NCBI RefSeq assembly: GCF_014205135.1 | Contig: NZ_JACHMY010000001.1 | Coordinates: forward strand, 2,170,001-2,234,000 | Length of the DNA stretch: 64,000 nt | Direction: 5' to 3' | Source: Kribbella italica | GTDB lineage: Bacteria; Actinomycetota; Actinomycetes; Propionibacteriales; Kribbellaceae | Shown: one piece after another, positions 3,428 through 57,944 of the stretch | Layout of the letters: the number at the start of each line of letters is the position of its first letter | Numbering within the stretch: the stretch's first letter is position 1 | Position numbers and translations under genes: made by a program | The notes under the pieces: generated by a model | Told to the model about the DNA's origin: nothing | The model's input: only the letters and a program-made list of their open reading frames with translations | The model's database searches: none

Positions 3428-5409
3428 CTCAAGGTGAGACTTCCATCGGTGGACTCGACCGTCAGAGTTCGCTCTCCCACACGCACACCCTCAAGACGCA
3501 GTGACCGCCAGGGGAAGTCGCTCGCGGGCGTGATGTCGAGGGTGCCGGCCGGGACGTTGGGTTCGATGCCCAGCGCCGCCACGATCACCGCAACTGCTGA
3601 CGCGGCTGCCCAGGCCTGAGGACGGCAGGACAGGGGGTACGGCGTGGGGCTGCTTTCCTCTGCCGACCCCGCTCCCCCGTACAACTCGGGCAGCCGATAG
3701 CCGAAGGACTCCGCGGCTTCCAGCAGACCGCGCGTGTACGTCGTGGCCACAGCGGATCGGCCGGCGGCGTACAGGCCTTGCACGGTCATCGCGGTGTCGT
3801 GCGGCCAGACACTGCCGGTGTGGTAGCCGAGCGGGTTGAAGCCGGACAGCTCGGTCGTCAACGTCCGGAGCCCGAAACCGGAGTCCAGTTGCCGGTCGCC
3901 GAGCAGCGCCGCGACGGTTGCTTCCTCGTCGGCGTCGAGCAGTCCGGTGCCGAGCAGATGACCCATGTTGGACGCCGGCCCCGCGACCGGACGCTTGGCG
4001 CCGTCGAGCGCGATCGCCGGATACCCGTCGACCCAGAACTTCTCCCGGAACCTGGTCTTGAGCGCTGCCGCCCAGACCCGCCAGTCATCACCACCCTCCT
4101 CCTCAAACGCATCCAACAGCTCTGCGCCGGCCAATGCGGCGGCGTACGCATAGCCCTGGACCTCGCACAGAGCGATCGGCGCGGTGGCGATCGTGCCGTC
4201 GGGCCACTGGACGGAGTCGCTGGAGTCCTTCCAGCCCTGGTTGGCCAGGCCGTGGCCGGACTCGTCGATGTACTCGAAGAAGCCGTCCCCGTCGGGATCG
4301 GCGTAGTCGCGCATCCAGGTGAGCGCCCGTTGCAGGTTCGGCAGCAGCGCGCGCACCTCGTCGGCGGGCATCCCCCAGCGCCACGCCTTGTGCAGCGTCG
4401 TGATCCAGAGCTGGGTCGCGTCGTGCGTTCCGTAGTACGCCGCCGGCAGCACCAGCCCGCCGCCGTGATCGGCGACCTCGGCGCGCAACTCGTGCGGGAT
4501 CTTGCCGGGTTGCTCGGCCGCGTCGGCGTCGACCTTCGTGCCCTGCCGTTGGGCGAGCGCCCGCAGCGTGCCGGCGGCAAGCTCCGGATCCACCGGAATC
4601 AGCATCCCCGAAGAGATCAAGGAGTCCCGCCCAAAGAGGGTGAGATACCAAGGCGGCCCAGCCCCGAGATAGCGCTCACTGTCAGTGCCCAGCTGCAGGG
4701 CGGCGAGGTCGTCCAGCGAGCGGCGCAGCCAGCGTTCCACGCGGGTGTCCGAGCAGGACAGCGCGATCTCGTCGTACGCCGGACGCTCGGCCGGCGCCTT
4801 GATCTCGAAGCCCGTCGCCGCCGGGAACTCCGCGGTCACCCGCAGCGTGATCGTCGACTCGTCGCCGGGCTTGAGCTGCAACTGCCACCGCATTCCCCCG
4901 CCCTCGAGAGCAGGCTCGCGATCGGCGAGAGCGCTCACCCGCGTCCCCGCCTTCTCCCAGCGCAGCGCGTCGCCGTCGACCACGGGAGTCAGCGCGGGAA
5001 GCTCCACGGCCGCCTCGCTCCGGACCTCGGCCGTCCCCGCAAGGTCGGTGCCGAGAGCAACATTCACCGTGCAGCCGACAGTCTGGTGCGAGTTGTTGAC
5101 CACCGTCAGACTCTCGGTGAGACCCTCACCACTCACCGTTCGGGTCCGCCGCAACCGCACCGTCGGATCGTGCCCACCGTCGCCCAGCCCCTCGATCACC
5201 GCCCCGAAGACGGTCACCCCTCCGCCGGACTCGTCCACCTGGACCGGCAGCGGTTCCCGGCCGTCGACCGTCACCACCAACCGGGACAGGATCCGGCGGT
5301 CCCGGGCGTAGACACCCTCGGCTCCGGTCCCGGTGAGTTGCCCCGAGCGGGGCGACAGCACCACCCAGGGCGCGGCGAGTGTGGTGACCAATTCATGAAG
5401 GGCAGCCAT
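3424..5409 (-). CDS. Glycogen debranching-like enzyme (amylo-alpha-1,6-glucosidase type)
   Basis: A 661-residue protein with an N-terminal glycogen-debranching beta domain (about 1-200, including GVYARDRRILSRL) and a C-terminal (alpha/alpha)6 barrel of the GH15/GH63-like clan with WYLTLFGRDSLISS and later TGSVWPHDTA. The family acts on alpha-1,6 or related glucosidic bonds of oligosaccharides; the substrate cannot be read here. The ATG lies six bases after a TAGTGT -10 on the minus strand, so it is probably leaderless and not co-transcribed with neighbours. Confidence 0.82.
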   Translation of the reverse strand: MAALHELVTTLAAPWVVLSPRSGQLTGTGAEGVYARDRRILSRLVVTVDGREPLPVQVDESGGGVTVFGAVIEGLGDGGHDPTVRLRRTRTVSGEGLTESLTVVNNSHQTVGCTVNVALGTDLAGTAEVRSEAAVELPALTPVVDGDALRWEKAGTRVSALADREPALEGGGMRWQLQLKPGDESTITLRVTAEFPAATGFEIKAPAERPAYDEIALSCSDTRVERWLRRSLDDLAALQLGTDSERYLGAGPPWYLTLFGRDSLISSGMLIPVDPELAAGTLRALAQRQGTKVDADAAEQPGKIPHELRAEVADHGGGLVLPAAYYGTHDATQLWITTLHKAWRWGMPADEVRALLPNLQRALTWMRDYADPDGDGFFEYIDESGHGLANQGWKDSSDSVQWPDGTIATAPIALCEVQGYAYAAALAGAELLDAFEEEGGDDWRVWAAALKTRFREKFWVDGYPAIALDGAKRPVAGPASNMGHLLGTGLLDADEEATVAALLGDRQLDSGFGLRTLTTELSGFNPLGYHTGSVWPHDTAMTVQGLYAAGRSAVATTYTRGLLEAAESFGYRLPELYGGAGSAEESSPTPYPLSCRPQAWAAASAVAVIVAALGIEPNVPAGTLDITPASDFPWRSLRLEGVRVGERTLTVESTDGSLTLS

Positions 5410-5415
5410 GCGCCC

Positions 5416-5421
5416 ACACTA
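5416..5421 (-). promoter_or_regulatory. -10 element for leaderless debranching gene
   Basis: TAGTGT on the minus strand, six bases before the ATG at 5409. There is no ribosome-binding sequence, so the transcript probably begins at the start codon. Confidence 0.5.
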
Positions 5422-5451
5422 AGCCGAGCGTTGTACGGCAGAGTGGGGGGC

Positions 5452-5937
5452 GTGAACTCCGTTGCGACGTTCCTGGTCGGCGTGGCGATCTTCGTCGGCA
5501 TCATCGGCATCGTGGTCCCGGTGCTGCCCGGCGCGCTGCTCAGCCTCGCCGCGATCCTGATCTGGGCGCTGGAGGAACAGAGCCCGACCGGCTGGGCCGT
5601 GCTGGCCGCGGCGGTGGTCCTGATCGGTGCGAGCCAGGTGGTGAAGTACATCGTTCCGGAGCGCAGGCTCCGAGAGTCCGGCGTCCCTCGACGATCCATG
5701 TTCGTCGGAGTGCTGCTCGGGATCGTCGGGTTCTTCGTGATCCCGGTGGTCGGCATGTTCGTCGGGTTCCCGCTGGGTGTCTACCTGTCGGAGCGGCAGC
5801 GCCTCGGCACGCACCCGGACGCCTGGACGTCGACCAAGCACGCGCTGCGGGCGACCGGCCTGTCGATCCTGATCGAGTTCATCGGTACGGCGCTCGCGGC
5901 CGCCGTCTGGCTGGTCGCCGTCCTGTTCCTGGTCTGA
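5452..5937 (+). CDS. DUF456 family membrane protein
   Basis: A 161-residue integral membrane protein of unknown function. It has long hydrophobic stretches near residues 5-45, 50-70, 80-105 and 130-160, with the family's glycine-rich segments (GIIGIVVPVLPGALL and GIVGFFVIPVVGMFVGFPLG). The GTG start at 5452 follows a G-rich stretch. It is followed by a 111-base gap holding direct repeats and two hairpins before the next gene. Confidence 0.85.
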   Translation: MNSVATFLVGVAIFVGIIGIVVPVLPGALLSLAAILIWALEEQSPTGWAVLAAAVVLIGASQVVKYIVPERRLRESGVPRRSMFVGVLLGIVGFFVIPVVGMFVGFPLGVYLSERQRLGTHPDAWTSTKHALRATGLSILIEFIGTALAAAVWLVAVLFLV

Positions 5938-5938
5938 C

Positions 5939-5955
5939 TGCCAGGGTTTTGCCAG
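5939..5955. promoter_or_regulatory. TGCCAG direct repeats, 11-bp phasing (site 1)
   Basis: TGCCAG occurs at 5939 and 5950, one helical turn apart. The same pair recurs at 6634 and 6645 before the response regulator gene. Eleven-base direct repeats are the usual target form for OmpR/PhoB-type regulators, so this is a candidate binding site for the regulator encoded just downstream. Confidence 0.5.
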
Positions 5956-6003
5956 CCTCGCGGGAGGCTCGTCTCAGGTCGGCGTCGCAGGGTGGGACGA
6001 CCA

Positions 6004-6025
6004 GTACCAGGTGACGGCCTGGTAC
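6004..6025 (+). promoter_or_regulatory. Stem-loop in the leader of the DUF5666-like gene
   Basis: GTACCAGG and CCTGGTAC form a perfect 8-bp stem around TGACGG. It ends nine bases before the GGGAGG ribosome site, so it may influence translation or mRNA stability. Confidence 0.4.
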
Positions 6026-6048
6026 GTCGTACCGGGAGGCAGTTGCAG

Positions 6049-6603
6049 ATGGCGTCGTTCGAGAAACTCACCGACAAACCGTGGCGGATCGCCGGCACCG
6101 TCGCGGCGGTGGTCGTCACCACGGCGGCCGGCGGAGTCGCCTGGGCCACCACCAACGCCGACCCGTCCCCCGCACCCTCGGCCAGCCCGTCCGCGTCGCC
6201 CTCGGCACCCGCTGATCCGGCCAAGCCGGGCCCCGGCGGACCCGGCGGCCCGGGACGGCACGGCGAGTTCGGGCTCGGGATGGGCGCGCTGCACGGCGAG
6301 TTCGTGGTCGAGAAGGAGGGCGGCGGCTACCAGACCGTGGCGACCCAGCGCGGTGAGGTCACCGCGGTCAGCAAGGACAAGCTCACGGTGAAGAGCGCCG
6401 ACGGCTACAGCCGCGAGTACACGCTGACCGAGGACACCTTGGTGAACGCCGCCCGCGACGGCATCGACGACGTGAAGACCGGCAACCAGGTCACCGTGTC
6501 GGCGGTCGTCGCGAACAACGTCGCCACCGCGACCACGGTCAACGACGGGACCACGCGCGACGCGGCCCGCGAGAAGTGGGGTCTCAAGCGCGGTCCACGC
6601 TGA
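6049..6603 (+). CDS. Membrane-anchored or secreted DUF5666-like protein
   Basis: A 184-residue protein with one N-terminal hydrophobic segment (about residues 11-32, IAGTVAAVVVTTAAGGVAWA), a Pro/Ser/Ala and Gly-rich linker, and a C-terminal beta-rich domain with GEVTAVSKDKLTVKSADG, typical of DUF5666. It should sit outside the membrane. The start is fixed by GGGAGG at 6034. It directly precedes a two-component system, and both carry the same upstream TGCCAG repeats, so it may be a target of, or an envelope sensor partner for, that system. Function unknown. Confidence 0.72.
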   Translation: MASFEKLTDKPWRIAGTVAAVVVTTAAGGVAWATTNADPSPAPSASPSASPSAPADPAKPGPGGPGGPGRHGEFGLGMGALHGEFVVEKEGGGYQTVATQRGEVTAVSKDKLTVKSADGYSREYTLTEDTLVNAARDGIDDVKTGNQVTVSAVVANNVATATTVNDGTTRDAAREKWGLKRGPR

Positions 6604-6633
6604 CCACACCCACGGGCAGGACTCACAGGCAAC

Positions 6634-6650
6634 TGCCAGGAAGGTGCCAG
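6634..6650. promoter_or_regulatory. TGCCAG direct repeats, 11-bp phasing (site 2)
   Basis: TGCCAG at 6634 and 6645, matching site 1 at 5939-5955. It lies about 35 bases before the response regulator start, consistent with autoregulation. Confidence 0.5.
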
Positions 6651-6671
6651 GGTTCGCACGGTTCACCGGTG

Positions 6672-6677
6672 CAGACT
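6672..6677 (+). promoter_or_regulatory. Possible -10 for the response regulator
   Basis: CAGACT ends seven bases before ATG 6685 and supports that start over the GTG at 6679. Confidence 0.35.
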
Positions 6678-6684
6678 GGTGGGC

Positions 6685-7386
6685 ATGAGCCCGCACCTCC
6701 TGGTCGTCGACGACGAGCCGAACATCGTCGAGCTGCTGTCCGCGAGCCTGCGCTTCGCCGGGTACGACGTGACCACAGCCACCCACGGCGCCGAGGCGCT
6801 GAAGAAGGCCCGTGAGGTCGAGCCCGACCTCGTCGTCCTCGACGTGATGATGCCCGGGCTGGACGGTTTCGAGGTCGTCCGGCGGCTGCGGGGAGAGGAC
6901 CGGCACGTCCCGGTCCTCTTCCTGACCGCCCGGGACGCCGTCGAGGACAAGGTGCTCGGCCTGCACACCGGCGGCGACGACTACGTGACCAAGCCGTTCA
7001 GCCTGGACGAGCTGGTCGCGCGGGTGCGCGCTCTGCTGCGCAGGTCCGGGCATCGCGAGCAGGCCGCGACCGAACCGGCGATCCTCAAGTACGCCGACCT
7101 CGAGCTCAACGAGGACAGCTACGAGGTGTTCAAGTCCGGTACGGCGGTGCAGCTGTCGCTGACCGAGTTCAAGCTCCTGCGCTGTCTGCTGGAGAACGCC
7201 GAGCGGGTGATGTCGAAGGGCCAGATCCTCTCCGCGGTCTGGAACTACGACTTCGCCGGTGACGCCGGCGTGGTCGAGTCGTACATGTCCTACCTGCGCC
7301 GCAAGGTCGACACCGGCGACCAGAAGCTGCTGCACACCGTCCGCGGTGTCGGCTACGTCCTCCGTACGCCGAGAGGCCCCAACTGA
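6685..7386 (+). CDS. OmpR/PhoB-family response regulator
   Basis: A cytoplasmic DNA-binding regulator of 233 residues. The receiver domain has acidic residues DDE at 9-11, phosphoacceptor Asp53 in VVLDVMMPG, and the conserved TAR and KPF signals. The C-terminal winged helix has the OmpR-type ending (SYMSYLRRKVD...TVRGVGYVLR). It forms an operon with the histidine kinase: its TGA overlaps the kinase ATG by one base. A proposed binding site lies just upstream. Confidence 0.93.
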   Translation: MSPHLLVVDDEPNIVELLSASLRFAGYDVTTATHGAEALKKAREVEPDLVVLDVMMPGLDGFEVVRRLRGEDRHVPVLFLTARDAVEDKVLGLHTGGDDYVTKPFSLDELVARVRALLRRSGHREQAATEPAILKYADLELNEDSYEVFKSGTAVQLSLTEFKLLRCLLENAERVMSKGQILSAVWNYDFAGDAGVVESYMSYLRRKVDTGDQKLLHTVRGVGYVLRTPRGPN

Positions 7387-51661: not shown

Positions 51662-54166
51662 TTGGCCAACCGAGGTCGTCGCCAGACCGGAACCGACGCG
51701 CAGCGCGGCGGTTCGTCCGGCGCTTCGCGTGGTGGTTCGACGAGCGGTGGGTCCCGTGGGGGCTCGACCGCGGCTGCGCGCGAGGGAGCCGTCAGTTCCG
51801 GCGGCGCCGCGCGGGGCAGCTCGAACGGCGGGTCCCGGGGAGGATCTGGTGCCGGTTCGCGAGGTCCCTCGGACGGAGCTCGGGGAGGATCCGGCGCCGG
51901 TTCGCGAGGTCCCTCGGACGGAGGCCGCGGCGCATCGGCCAACGCGTCCCGCGGCGGATCGACCGGCGGAGGATCGCGCTCAGGCGGTGGCCGCGGCGGA
52001 GCCTCGCGGGGTTCCGGTGGCGGCTCCCGCGGCAGCGCCGGTGGCTCGTCCCGCGGGTCGGGTGGCGCCTCCCGCGGCGGATCGGGCGGCGGGACGCGGC
52101 GCAAGCGCCGTACCGACGATGCCGACGGCCTGATCCCGGTCCTCGCGCGGGCCGTACGGGAGGTCGAGGCGGCCGTCGAGCGCGGTGCGATCGCGCCCTC
52201 GATCCGGACGAAGTTCCAGGTCATCGGCCTGCTGGTCCGCCAGGAGCGGGCCCAGGTCAACGGCGACGCCACGGCCACCGACGCCTACCGCGCCGAGCAG
52301 CTGCGGCGGCTCGACGGGGTCGCGACGATTCTGGCCAAGACCGCCGCGCGCGAGCCCTCGCTGCTCGCGCTGCTCGCCGAGGACGCGGTGATGTCCGAGG
52401 CGGCCGTCGCGCTGCAGCGCGAGATGCTGCTCGCCGCGGGTCTCGAAGCGCCTGTGGAAAAGCCCAAGCCGGTCGAGCAGCCCATCGAGACCGCGCCGCC
52501 GCGCCAGGTCGTGCCGCAGTCGGTCGTCTCCCGCCAGCTGGCGAACCCGTTCCTCGCTCCCGACTTCTCGGCCGCTCCGCAGAAGGAGGCCAAGCCGCGC
52601 CGCCTGGCCGGCTGGGAGCTGATCGGTCCGCTGCTGCGGTCCTTCGAGCAGGCCGGCGCGTCCGCCAGCATGCACCTGCCCGACCCGTCGTCGCTGAACG
52701 CCGCAGGTGGTCGCGAGCTGATGCTGCACCAGGCGCAGCTGATCGCCTCCGCCTCGGACGGACACCGGACCTTCCTGCTGGCCGACGAGCCCGGTCTGGG
52801 CAAGACGGCGCAGGCGCTGCTCGCCGCCCAGGCGGCGCAGGCCTATCCGCTGCTTGTCGTCGTACCGAACGTGGTCAAGACGAACTGGGCCCGCGAGGCC
52901 GACCTGTGGACGCCGAAGCGCAAGGCGACCGTGATCCAGGGCGACGGCGACACGATCGACGGCTTCGCCGACATCGTCGTGGTGAACTACGAGGTCCTCG
53001 ACCGGCACGTCGGCTGGCTGGTCGACTTCGGCTTCCGCGGCATGGTCGTCGACGAGGCGCACTTCATCAAGAACAAGAAGTCGCACCGCTCGCGCAACGT
53101 GCTGCACCTGTCGGAGCGGATCCGGTCGCGGACCGCGCGGCCGCTGCTGATGGCCCTGACCGGTACGCCGCTGATCAACGACATCGAGGACTTCACCGCG
53201 ATCTGGCAGTACCTGGGCTGGATCGAGGAGCGCTCTCCCGGCGCCGTCCTGATGGAGAAGCTCGAGGAGACCGACCTCACGCCGGCCGACCCCGCGTTCT
53301 ACCCGGCGGCCCGGTCGAGCGTGATCGACATGGGCATCGTCCGCCGTCGCAAGGTCGACGTCGCGGCCGACATCCCCGCCCGCCGGATCGCCAACCTGCC
53401 GGTCGAGCTCGACGGTTCGGTCGGCCGCTCGATCCGCGAGGCCGAGCGCGAGCTGGCCGGGCGCCTGGTCGCGCGGTACCGCCTGGCCCTGGAGACCCGC
53501 AGCTCCGGTGTCGTTGTCGACGGCATCGATCACGCGCTGGTCCACCAGGTCGCCGAGTGGGAACGCACCGAGATGTCGACGGCGAAGACGGGCGAGAACG
53601 TCTTCACGCTCGTCCGGCGGATCGGAAAGGCCAAAGCCGGCCTGGCCGCCGACTACGCCGCCCAGCTGGCGCACAACGTCGGCAAGGTCGTGTACTTCGC
53701 GCGCCACATCGAGGCGATGGACACGGCCGAGGAGCTGTTCGCGGATCGCGGCATCAAGTACGCGTCGATCCGGGGCGACCAGTCCCCCACCGCCCGGCAG
53801 AAGAACATCGACGCGTTCGTCAACGACCCGGACGTCTCGATCGTGGTCTGCTCGCTGCTGACCGCCGGCGTCGGCCTGAACCTCCAGGTCGCGTCGAACG
53901 TCGTACTGGCCGAATTGTCCTGGACCAACGCCGAGCAGACCCAGGCGATCGACCGGGTCCACCGGATCGGCCAGCAGGAGCCCGTCACGGCCTGGCGCGT
54001 CATCGCCGCCCAGACCATCGACACCCGCATCGCCGACCTGATCGACTCGAAGGCCGGGCTGGCGGCCGTCGCCCTGGACGGCGCGGACGCCGACGAGCTC
54101 GCGACCACCGACATCCAGGTCGAGGCGCTGGCGACGCTCCTCACGAACGCGCTCGAAGCCGAGTAG
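51662..54166 (+). CDS. SNF2-type helicase with RG/SG-rich N-terminal tail
   Basis: An 834-residue protein. Residues 1-150 are low complexity, rich in Gly, Ser and Arg (RGGS, SRGG), with a 15-residue tandem duplication near 59-88. A SNF2-type ATPase follows: motif I ADEPGLGKTAQALLAA, motif II VVDEAHFIKN, LTGTPLINDIEDF, and motif VI QAIDRVHRIGQQEP. No Zn or HNH module is visible. The start is TTG 51662, set by a strong GAGGAGG site. Likely role: remodelling DNA or DNA-protein complexes. Confidence 0.87.
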   Translation: MANRGRRQTGTDAQRGGSSGASRGGSTSGGSRGGSTAAAREGAVSSGGAARGSSNGGSRGGSGAGSRGPSDGARGGSGAGSRGPSDGGRGASANASRGGSTGGGSRSGGGRGGASRGSGGGSRGSAGGSSRGSGGASRGGSGGGTRRKRRTDDADGLIPVLARAVREVEAAVERGAIAPSIRTKFQVIGLLVRQERAQVNGDATATDAYRAEQLRRLDGVATILAKTAAREPSLLALLAEDAVMSEAAVALQREMLLAAGLEAPVEKPKPVEQPIETAPPRQVVPQSVVSRQLANPFLAPDFSAAPQKEAKPRRLAGWELIGPLLRSFEQAGASASMHLPDPSSLNAAGGRELMLHQAQLIASASDGHRTFLLADEPGLGKTAQALLAAQAAQAYPLLVVVPNVVKTNWAREADLWTPKRKATVIQGDGDTIDGFADIVVVNYEVLDRHVGWLVDFGFRGMVVDEAHFIKNKKSHRSRNVLHLSERIRSRTARPLLMALTGTPLINDIEDFTAIWQYLGWIEERSPGAVLMEKLEETDLTPADPAFYPAARSSVIDMGIVRRRKVDVAADIPARRIANLPVELDGSVGRSIREAERELAGRLVARYRLALETRSSGVVVDGIDHALVHQVAEWERTEMSTAKTGENVFTLVRRIGKAKAGLAADYAAQLAHNVGKVVYFARHIEAMDTAEELFADRGIKYASIRGDQSPTARQKNIDAFVNDPDVSIVVCSLLTAGVGLNLQVASNVVLAELSWTNAEQTQAIDRVHRIGQQEPVTAWRVIAAQTIDTRIADLIDSKAGLAAVALDGADADELATTDIQVEALATLLTNALEAE
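51837..51926 (+). repeat. 45-bp tandem duplication in helicase tail
   Basis: Two nearly identical 45-base units, each with GCCGGTTCGCGAGGTCCCTC, encode GGSGAGSRGPSDG-type units. In frame. Confidence 0.8.
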
Positions 54167-54685: not shown

Positions 54686-55987
54686 ATGGATGCACAGGCT
54701 CTGCAACGCAGTTGGGACCAGGTCACCGAGCACGGCGAGCAGGTCCCGTTGTACTTCTACTCGCACCTGTTCGTGTCGTACCCCGAAGTGCGGCCGATGT
54801 TCCCGCTGTCGATGGCGAACCAGCGCGACAAGTTCGTCGGTGCCCTCGGCCGCATCGTCAGCCACGCCGACCAGATCGAGCACGACGCGGCCTTCCTGCA
54901 GCACCTGGGCCGCGACCACCGCAAGTACGCCGTCCTGGCGGAGCACTACAACGCCGTCGGCGCCTCGCTCTGCGCGACCCTGATGCACTTCCTGGGGCCG
55001 GAGTGGGACGAGGAGCTCGCCGCGCACTGGACCGCGGCGTACCAGGTGGTCGCGCGGATCATGGTCGAGGCGGCGGAGGACGCGTCGGAGTCCACCCCGG
55101 ACTGGTGGGACGCGGACGTGCTCTCGGCCGAGCGGCGGACCATGGACCTCACGCTGCTGACGGTCCGCCCCCGGCGGCCGTTCCCGTTCCGCCCCGGCCA
55201 GTCGATCTCGATGGAGATCCCGCAACGCCCACGCCAGTGGCGGTACTTCAGCCCCGCCAACGCACCCCGCGCGGACGGCTCGATCGATCTGCACGTCCAG
55301 CAGATCGACGGCGGCCAGGTGAGCCCGACCGTCGTACGGTCGCTGAAGGCGGGTGACACCGTGAAGCTGGGTGCACCGGTCGGCGAGCGACTGACGCTGC
55401 GCGACACCGCGGCGAGGGAACTGCTGCTGGTCGCGGGCGGGACCGGGCTGGCTCCGCTGCTGGCCCTGCTCGAGCAGATCGACGGCGAGTGGCACCGGTC
55501 GGGCAACGGACCCCTCGTCCACCTGCTGCACGGCGTACGGATGCCTTGGCATCTGTACGACCGGCCCCGGCTGCGCGAGCTCGCCAAGACGCGGTCGTGG
55601 TTCGAGTACACCGAGGTCGTCTCGGACGACCCGTCGTACCCGGGGACGCGCGGGAAGGTCGGCACGGTCGCGGCCCGGCAGTTGCTGCACGGGCGGACGG
55701 CGATGGTGTGCGGCGGCCCGCAGATGGTCGCGCACACGCTCGAGCGGCTGGCCGCGGCCGGCATGTCGCCCGAGCACATCAAGTACGAGCACTTCTACTA
55801 CGCGGCCGCGGGCGAGCACGCCGCCGGGCCACCGTTACCAGGGCAGGAGACACCCAGTGAGGACCAGCAAACACCGTCACGGCTCCCCACAGCAGACGCC
55901 GCGGTCGATCCGGGACGAGACCTTCCAGAAGCGGATCCGTGGGCTCGACGCGAGCGAGGTCTACGGGTACCTCGATCGGCTGGCTGA
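54686..55987 (+). CDS. Flavohemoglobin-like globin with FAD/NAD(P)H reductase domain
   Basis: A 433-residue protein. The globin domain (about 1-135) has B10 Tyr in YFYSHLF and proximal His78 in GRDHRKY. A FAD domain follows (PFRPGQSISME, RYFSPANAP) and an NAD(P)H domain (LLVAGGTGLAPLLALLE, MVCGGPQMVAHTL). Such proteins turn NO into nitrate. The last 43 residues lie in the next gene's 5' end and are Pro/Asp/Arg-rich, unlike the family. It leads the DivIVA and NOS operon, so it may also supply electrons to NOS. Confidence 0.9.
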   Translation: MDAQALQRSWDQVTEHGEQVPLYFYSHLFVSYPEVRPMFPLSMANQRDKFVGALGRIVSHADQIEHDAAFLQHLGRDHRKYAVLAEHYNAVGASLCATLMHFLGPEWDEELAAHWTAAYQVVARIMVEAAEDASESTPDWWDADVLSAERRTMDLTLLTVRPRRPFPFRPGQSISMEIPQRPRQWRYFSPANAPRADGSIDLHVQQIDGGQVSPTVVRSLKAGDTVKLGAPVGERLTLRDTAARELLLVAGGTGLAPLLALLEQIDGEWHRSGNGPLVHLLHGVRMPWHLYDRPRLRELAKTRSWFEYTEVVSDDPSYPGTRGKVGTVAARQLLHGRTAMVCGGPQMVAHTLERLAAAGMSPEHIKYEHFYYAAAGEHAAGPPLPGQETPSEDQQTPSRLPTADAAVDPGRDLPEADPWARRERGLRVPRSAG

Positions 55988-56453
55988 CCAGATGCAGGCG
56001 ATGGACCAGGCGCTCGGTGAGAGCCGGTCCAAGAACGAACGCCTCCAGGCCGAGCTGCAGCGCGTACAGGCCGAGCTGGACCAGTACGAGGAAGCCGGCG
56101 ACCGCGTGAACGAGCAGGTCGTGCAGATGTTCAGCCAGGCCCAGCTCGTGGTCGAGGAGATGGTCCAGGACGTCAGCCGGGACGCGCGCGAGCGGATCGG
56201 CCAGGCGCGCGAGCACGAGCGCAGGATCGTCGCCGAGGCGATGGACACGGCCGGGCAGCAGGTCCGCTCGTACGCGCAAACGGCCCAGGTGCAGATGCAG
56301 ACGATCGTGAACTCGTTCGCGACCGAGGTCGAGCACCTCGGCGACACGACGACACCGCCGCCGCCCGTCGAGCCGACGCCCGGTTCGTTCTTCGACGACA
56401 CGGATTCGCACACCCGTTTTCGCAACGGGCGCGGTCCGGGTACTCCAGGCTAG
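55857..56453 (+). CDS. DivIVA-domain coiled-coil protein
   Basis: A 198-residue protein. It starts with a DivIVA-type membrane-targeting segment (RDETFQKRIRGLDASEVYGYLDRLADQM), followed by a long coiled coil (about 50-150) and a Pro-rich tail. DivIVA proteins mark curved or polar membrane and recruit partners. GTG 55857 has GGAGA upstream, and no later start keeps the domain, so the 131-base overlap with the globin gene is real. NOS starts nine bases after its stop. Confidence 0.88.
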   Translation: MRTSKHRHGSPQQTPRSIRDETFQKRIRGLDASEVYGYLDRLADQMQAMDQALGESRSKNERLQAELQRVQAELDQYEEAGDRVNEQVVQMFSQAQLVVEEMVQDVSRDARERIGQAREHERRIVAEAMDTAGQQVRSYAQTAQVQMQTIVNSFATEVEHLGDTTTPPPPVEPTPGSFFDDTDSHTRFRNGRGPGTPG

Positions 56454-56462
56454 GACCGGGCC

Positions 56463-57944
56463 GTGAGACCCGCACAGCACCGCCCCCTTGTGGTTCTCCT
56501 CCTCGCAGTGGCCGGACTGGCCGCTGCCCTTGATTGGACTGGCATCTCAGCGTTCGTCGTACTGGCACTCGTTCTGTTCCTCTTCATCTGCACCCCTCAG
56601 CTCGTCGGTGCCGAACGCCTGCTCCAAGTCGGAGACCGCCCGTGGCACAAGGCCCCCCGCTCCGGCCGCCGCGCGTCGCCGGGCCCCGGCAGAGTCCAGG
56701 CAAGACCCGTCCATCCCGTACGCCGACCCGACGCCGAAGCGCCTCCGCCTCCCGCACCTCGCTGCCCGGCCCACGCTCAAGCCCCCGCCCCGATCACCGC
56801 TCCGCCCCTGCGCACCCCAGAATCCGACGACATAAAAGCCGCAGCCCAAGAATTCCTAGAGCTCTTCGCCGCCGAGAATCCCCGAGCCGACCGCATAGGC
56901 CCCCGCATCGCCGCAGCCATGCGGGAGATCGATCTCACCGGCACCTACTGGCACACCCCCGAAGAGCTCGCCTTCGGCGCCAGGGTCGCCTGGCGCAACA
57001 ACGCCCGCTGCATTGGCCGCCTCTACTGGCGCAGCCTCCAGGTCCGCGACCTCCGCACAGTCGGCGACGCCGCCTCCGTAGCAGCCCACTGCTTCGACCA
57101 TCTCCAAGCCGCCCACAACGGCGGCAAGATCCGCCCGATGATCACCATCTTCGCCCCCGAAACCCCTGGGAAGCCCGCCCCCAGAATCTGGAACGAACAG
57201 CTAATCCGCTACGCCGGCTACAACCAGCCCGACGGCCGAGTCCTAGGCGATCCCCGCTACCGCGCCCTAACCACCGAACTGATCCGCCGAGGCTGGCAGC
57301 CCCCCGCTGTCCCAGGAGCCTTCGACGTACTCCCCCTAGTCGTAGAAACCCCCGACGAGGGCCCCCAACTCTTCAAACTCCCCGCAACCGCAATCCACGA
57401 AGTCCCTCTCGAACACCCCGACCTCCCCTGGTTCGCCGACCTGAACCTCCGCTGGCACGCCGTACCGGTCATCAGCAACAACCGCCTGGACATCGGCGGC
57501 ATCTCGTACCCCGCCGCCCCCTTCAACGGCTGGTACATGGGCACCGAAATCGGAGCCCGCAACCTGGGCGACGAAGACCGCTACGCCCTGGTTCCCGAGG
57601 TAGCCCAACGCCTAGGCCTCGACACCTCAACCGAAGCCACCCTCTGGCGAGACCGAGCCCTGGTCGAACTCAACCGAGCCGTCCTCCACTCCTTCCACTC
57701 CAACGGCATCAGCATCACCGACCACCACACAGAATCCCGCCGCTTCCTCGTCCACCTCGACCGAGAACAACGAGCCGGCCGCCACTGCCCCACCGACTGG
57801 ACCTGGATCGTCCCACCCATGTCCGGCTCCCAGACCCCGGTCTTCCACCGCCACTACGACAACGAAGACCAGGTCCCCAACTTCTTCACCGACAACGACA
57901 CCGTCTCCCGAGCTGTCCGAGGCAGCCCCCCGGCCTTCCTCTGA
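56463..57944 (+). CDS. nos: Nitric oxide synthase oxygenase with N-terminal membrane anchor
   Basis: A 493-residue protein. Residues 1-45 form two hydrophobic helices (VVLLLAVAGLAAAL and AFVVLALVLFLFI). A Pro/Arg-rich linker (about 60-120) leads into the NOS oxygenase domain (about 123-493). The heme thiolate is Cys183 in WRNNARCIGR, the arginine-binding Glu362 is in GWYMGTEIG, and pterin/heme contacts are in DWTWIVPPMSGS. No reductase domain. It oxidises arginine to citrulline and NO. The GTG start lies nine bases after divIVA. Codons CTA, GTA and ATA become frequent only in the oxygenase part. Confidence 0.88.
   Translation: MRPAQHRPLVVLLLAVAGLAAALDWTGISAFVVLALVLFLFICTPQLVGAERLLQVGDRPWHKAPRSGRRASPGPGRVQARPVHPVRRPDAEAPPPPAPRCPAHAQAPAPITAPPLRTPESDDIKAAAQEFLELFAAENPRADRIGPRIAAAMREIDLTGTYWHTPEELAFGARVAWRNNARCIGRLYWRSLQVRDLRTVGDAASVAAHCFDHLQAAHNGGKIRPMITIFAPETPGKPAPRIWNEQLIRYAGYNQPDGRVLGDPRYRALTTELIRRGWQPPAVPGAFDVLPLVVETPDEGPQLFKLPATAIHEVPLEHPDLPWFADLNLRWHAVPVISNNRLDIGGISYPAAPFNGWYMGTEIGARNLGDEDRYALVPEVAQRLGLDTSTEATLWRDRALVELNRAVLHSFHSNGISITDHHTESRRFLVHLDREQRAGRHCPTDWTWIVPPMSGSQTPVFHRHYDNEDQVPNFFTDNDTVSRAVRGSPPAFL

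Follow-up and report, generated by a model that had tools for sequence, protein, structure and literature searches.

In Kribbella italica, the genes for a flavohemoglobin-type globin-reductase (FHB), a DivIVA-family protein (DIV) and a nitric oxide synthase oxygenase (NOS) form a compact, closely coupled block. The content and order of the block are the same in every NOS-bearing genome of the genus that was compared, its linkage is independent of the surrounding genes, and it is never found in one genome with an alternative version that includes a truncated hemoglobin (trHb), trHb-FHB-DIV. We judge the chances to be about even that the three genes form an operon with translational coupling whose products would make NO and clear it at one place.

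The window, that is, the whole stretch of 64,000 nucleotides that was analyzed, spans positions 2,170,001-2,234,000 of an 8.9 Mb single-contig genome. An earlier note on this DNA had described three same-strand genes, the first two overlapping by 131 bases and the third following after a 9-base gap, and had recognized globin, FAD and NAD(P)H motifs in the first product, a DivIVA segment plus coiled coil in the second, and a reductase-less NOS in the third. The open reading frames bore out this arrangement on the plus strand (Table 1), with the 9 nt between DIV and NOS at 56454-56462, and the Pfam and TIGR03544 matches agreed with the domain assignments. Promoter and terminator scans found nothing useful. 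Upstream of the block, at 51662-54166 (+), is a gene for an SNF2-type helicase with a Ser/Gly/Arg-rich N-terminal low-complexity tail of approximately 150 residues containing SRGGS/RGG-like repeats.

Table 1. Features of the three-gene block (window positions).
Feature	Position	Strand	Evidence
FHB, flavohemoglobin-type globin-reductase, probable NO dioxygenase	54686..55987	+	Pfam globin, FAD and NAD(P)H domains; invariant residues
DIV, DivIVA-family protein	55857..56453	+	GTG start with AGGAG-type ribosome site just 5'; PF05103, TIGR03544, 2wuj profile match, AlphaFold model
FHB/DIV overlap, 131 nt, probably from an ancestral 4-nt (A/G)TGA overlap	55857..55987	+	Third-position GC; overlaps in relatives
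NOS, nitric oxide synthase oxygenase without reductase domain	56463..57944	+	NO_synthase PF02898 (4e-151), bacterial NOS structures, invariant residues
NOS N-terminal extension: hydrophobic segment(s) at about residues 8-48 and Arg/Pro-rich linker with RSGRRASPGPGR	56463..56815	+	TM-like segments, RxGR(R/S), codon-position pattern, low-confidence model

Thirty-eight genomes of the genus Kribbella were compared, 28 with NOS and 10 without. FHB-DIV-NOS was present in all 28 of the NOS-bearing genomes in identical order and on the same strand; the earlier note had proposed conserved linkage in relatives as a check on its reading, and this linkage was found. The genes flanking the block vary between species. 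The SNF2 gene that lies upstream in the window adjoins the block in only two of the compared relatives, and the downstream Rid gene lies beside it in none of them. Since neither gene is generally conserved beside the block, an operon reaching to either one was rejected. In many relatives the NOS start is within a few nucleotides of the DIV stop or overlaps it, often by 4 nt. Nine of the 10 NOS-less genomes carry trHb-FHB-DIV, located near ftsY in the compared loci, with FHB 56-58% and DIV approximately 30-36% identical to those of the window. The trHb gene was present in exactly these 9 genomes and in 0 of the 28 NOS-bearing ones. The two versions are mutually exclusive, no genome among the 38 having both, and one fragmented assembly (G036) has neither.

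We scanned for named relatives with an FHB profile and kept the best 80 of 577. A DIV-family gene was directly downstream of FHB in all 80 of these best-scoring loci (each E <= 5e-12 in a local scan), a count that applies to a subfamily and not to all flavohemoglobins because the FHBs used to build the query profile were linked to DIV, although DIV played no part in the retrieval. The arrangement was trHb-FHB-DIV in 46 of the 80, FHB-DIV in 15, FHB-DIV-NOS in 11, and FHB-DIV-trHb in 8. Genera with the FHB-DIV pair include Kribbella, Nocardioides, Actinopolymorpha, Mumia, Agromyces, Arthrobacter, Sinomonas, Microbacterium, Nocardia, Nocardiopsis, Microbispora, Nonomuraea, Amycolatopsis, Micromonospora, and Modestobacter, and searches with a DIV profile extended trHb-FHB-DIV to additional families within the order and the class. 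In three Nocardia loci (L305, L307 and L314), FHB-DIV is followed by a short single-domain globin-like match, so that another globin joins the DIV gene. Because DIV accompanies FHB in 80 of 80 loci, usually without NOS, DIV would belong first with the globin-reductase. By these comparisons, FHB-DIV is the widespread and presumably old core and NOS the apparent newcomer. The localized NO module proposed in the earlier note is partly supported, its predicted linkage being conserved, but its emphasis shifts to a core that usually occurs without NOS. Its suggestion that DivIVA could place both enzymes is plausible. Each of the protein families is known. Our search of the literature open without subscription found no description of an FHB-DivIVA pair or of the addition of NOS to it, and both the conserved pair and its extension by NOS seem to be undescribed.

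NOS was detected in 51 of 346 genomes of the class. As a control, 50 NOS loci outside the window were inspected over approximately 6 kb on either side where the contig allowed. FHB and a DIV-profile match were beside NOS in only 1 of the 50, G207, with the order NOS-FHB-coiled coil, the second and third genes overlapping by 4 nt. The coiled-coil protein of G207 scores under the Pfam DivIVA cut-off and is therefore classed as a divergent or analogous member of the DIV group. NOS occurs in 57 of 121 genomes of the family to which G207 belongs, and an FHB-DIV-like arrangement was beside NOS in 0 of the 30 loci fetched from that family. The FHB tree placed G207 elsewhere on a long branch, and it is apparently an independent case. 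FHBs from the FHB-DIV-NOS blocks of Kribbella and Nocardioides gansuensis grouped in one clade (support 100/100) apart from the FHBs of NOS-less Kribbella, and the NOS proteins of the genus formed one clade in the NOS tree (support 100). The N. gansuensis locus (L280, 5001-8269) is a Kribbella-type FHB-DIV-NOS block with an FHB 83% identical to that of the window, and it probably reflects horizontal transfer or an early branch. A locus from "Streptomyces sp. SID13031" (L272) groups inside Kribbella in both the FHB and NOS trees, and the strain is probably misnamed. Among other NOS loci, one has a tandem NOS pair approximately 300 bases apart (L260, from G481, 112-2604), and another has NOS divergent from two adjoining globin-reductase-like genes with no DIV gene (L237, from G361, 3955-7324).

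Flavohemoglobins oxidize NO to nitrate. FHB has the three domains of this family in one chain (globin, 2e-14; FAD_binding_6, 3e-10; NAD_binding_1, 2e-11), together with a proximal His and distal Tyr and Gln. In an alignment of 11 FHBs of the subfamily, Y25, Q46, H78, Y88, GTG at 252-254, and C342 were invariant. From alignment with solved flavohemoglobins and family knowledge, we take Y25, Q46, H78, and Y88 to be the B10 Tyr, E7 Gln, F8 His, and G5 Tyr, respectively. The H23 Glu of the heme-pocket triad falls at a gap or offset in the alignment with FHP and is not clearly conserved across the FHB subfamily alignment, which leaves the efficiency of NO dioxygenation uncertain. FHB scored 119 bits against the Hmp equivalog NF009805, well below the cut-off of 432 bits, and it is accordingly assigned to a distinct subfamily and not to Hmp itself. 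Among its named relatives, the FHB of Kribbella sp. ALI-6-A is the closest (94% over 371 columns). Judged by its domains and residues, FHB is a probable NO dioxygenase.

The earlier note had left two roles for FHB, either feeding electrons to NOS or limiting NO. We regard the first of these as unlikely. FHB would then be the missing NOS reductase, its FAD/NAD(P)H domain passing electrons to the NOS heme while DIV joins both proteins; this would fit the lack of a reductase domain in NOS and the fact that each NOS of the genus shares an operon with FHB. However, the FHB-DIV pair occurs without NOS in most actinomycetes, 49 of the 50 other actinomycete NOS loci are without FHB-DIV, and FHB has its own globin as electron acceptor. 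Moreover, bacterial NOS is known to use general flavodoxin-type reductases. Since this FHB is present in most actinomycetes in the absence of NOS, and the majority of actinomycete NOS genes do not have such an FHB beside them, the NO-limiting role is favored.

DIV has the N-terminal DivIVA domain and following coiled coil of its family. The match to PF05103 (DivIVA, 3e-11) was above the gathering score, TIGR03544 (DivI1A_domain) exceeded its cut-off, and the DIV profile matched the solved DivIVA N-domain 2wuj (5e-7). The AlphaFold model consists of a helix at 15-22, a beta turn, and one long helix at 32-163, with high pLDDT over most of its length. A Foldseek search with this model returned no match, which carries no information when the model is one long helix. 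The DIV proteins diverge rapidly in sequence, and a scaffold is a plausible role for the protein. The third-position GC of the 131-nt overlap is 0.86 in the DIV frame and 0.49 in the FHB frame, marking DIV as the constrained frame. The FHB stop and DIV start overlap by 4 nt, a classical sign of translational coupling, in 51 of the 80 named loci (best 80 of 577 relatives). Overlaps of 116-134 nt were found in 8 of the 11 named NOS-bearing loci and are confined to part of the NOS-bearing clade. The last approximately 43 residues of FHB (after about residue 390) are thus probably a run-on, most simply explained by an ancestral 4-nt overlap in which the frame slipped, given the low third-position GC in the FHB frame and the short overlap in most relatives.

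Doubtful, too, is the reading of the module as a gas or redox sensor for polar growth, in which FHB, alone or with trHb, would respond to O2 or NO and alter DIV, with NOS supplying the NO signal. In its favor, several kinds of globin recur around DIV, including trHb upstream or downstream and the single-domain globins of Nocardia; the full reductase kept in FHB suggests catalysis instead, and DIV showed no regulatory domain. A scaffold for an enzyme that removes NO is the role for DIV that we prefer.

NOS makes NO from arginine. The window NOS, from its sequence, would make NO from L-arginine, as it has the oxygenase domain, heme Cys, and substrate-binding Glu of a bacterial-type NOS, and no reductase domain was matched by Pfam. 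The closest solved structures are the bacterial NOS 2flq and 2an2, and Cys183, Glu362, and core residues were invariant in 12 NOS relatives. Ahead of this domain is an N-terminal extension of approximately 118 residues with a hydrophobic segment, which the earlier note had not included. The extension varies in length within the genus, with one or two TM-like segments in 17 of the 28 NOS proteins and none in 11, and the RxGR(R/S) motif of the Arg/Pro-rich linker is in 16 of the 28. Substitutions in the extension are concentrated at codon position 3, so it behaves as expected of coding sequence. The model of NOS has helices at 7-22 and 28-58 with low confidence and is otherwise too poor to interpret. 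NOS is predicted to be anchored in the membrane. GpsB-type adaptors bind (S/T)RxxR(R/K) peptides near the membrane (PMC6335420). That the Arg motif of NOS docks in a similar way into the groove of DIV is kept as speculation only: the Asp35-equivalent of the groove is Asp in 25 of 28 NOS-bearing and 0 of 9 other DIVs of the genus, and it does not co-vary with RxGR(R/S).

Several actinomycete NOS genes are in nitration clusters (PMC10831120), which would favor a NOS that serves biosynthetic nitration, as in the thaxtomin or lajollamycin clusters, with FHB and DIV incidental. We consider this highly improbable here, since no P450, PKS or NRPS was among the Pfam-tested window neighbors and the three genes stay together while their flanks vary between species. 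Chance proximity of same-strand neighbors, for which no supporting point was found, is refuted by the linkage counts (28 of 28 for the genus block, 80 of 80 for FHB-DIV among the best 80 of 577, and a DIV match in only 1 of 50 control NOS neighborhoods).

In the coupled operon that we propose, FHB would oxidize NO to nitrate with O2 and NAD(P)H. The DIV coiled coil would oligomerize and hold FHB, and NOS in the genomes that have it, at the membrane, perhaps at the septum or a growing tip. Downstream of FHB-DIV, the Kribbella lineage would have gained a NOS gene, with the trHb of the older trHb-FHB-DIV version absent. NOS could then convert arginine to NO beside its scavenger FHB, possibly with hand-over of the substrate, and the NO would act only nearby or go on to nitrate. 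More tentatively, and with less than even confidence, we suggest that in actinomycetes the globins that handle gases (FHB, alone or with trHb) have a dedicated scaffold of the DivIVA family, to which a NOS anchored in the membrane has been added in one lineage, yielding a confined source and sink of NO at the pole or septum that, so far as the literature searched shows, is not described in bacteria. In the genomes compared, the Kribbella NOS always travels with a candidate NO remover and a candidate scaffold. The NOS-less Kribbella with the parallel trHb-FHB-DIV module are natural controls. The FHB-DivIVA pair across actinomycetes suggests that the handling of NO or O2 may be physically tied to the polarity or division machinery.

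Each protein resembles a known system yet departs from it. In its domain order (globin, FAD, NAD(P)H), key residues of the heme pocket, and flavin motifs, FHB matches Hmp-type flavohemoglobins (E. coli 1gvh, Cupriavidus FHP 1cqx/3ozu); unlike them, it belongs to an actinomycete subfamily with an adjoining DIV gene in all of the best 80 of 577 named relatives. DIV has the N-terminal DivIVA domain and long coiled coil of DivIVA, Wag31, and GpsB, but it is dedicated, fast-evolving, and coupled to globin genes, and it has conserved segments of its own (SQAQ-type and a C-terminal VR...SVL...V..LG). NOS has the full oxygenase domain, heme Cys, and substrate Glu of the Bacillus oxygenases (2flq/2an2), but differs in the hydrophobic segment and basic linker at the N terminus in most genus members and in sharing an operon with FHB and DIV. 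Like TxtD-type NOS of nitration clusters, it is an actinomycete NOS oxygenase, but no nitrating P450 or biosynthetic genes were among the tested window neighbors. SyNOS of Synechococcus PCC 7335, a globin-NOS-reductase fusion (PDB 9q05), is a precedent for a single protein that unites NOS with a globin NO dioxygenase (PMC6104048, PMC12922734). As in the window block, a NOS oxygenase is tied to an NO-dioxygenase globin and flavin reductase modules, and the globin domain of the window FHB weakly matches SyNOS by sequence. However, SyNOS is a single polypeptide that includes a diflavin reductase and a C2 domain. The Kribbella block is not such a fusion; its NOS is without a reductase, and it consists of separate genes with only an FHB-type reductase and a DivIVA-family protein between the two enzymes.
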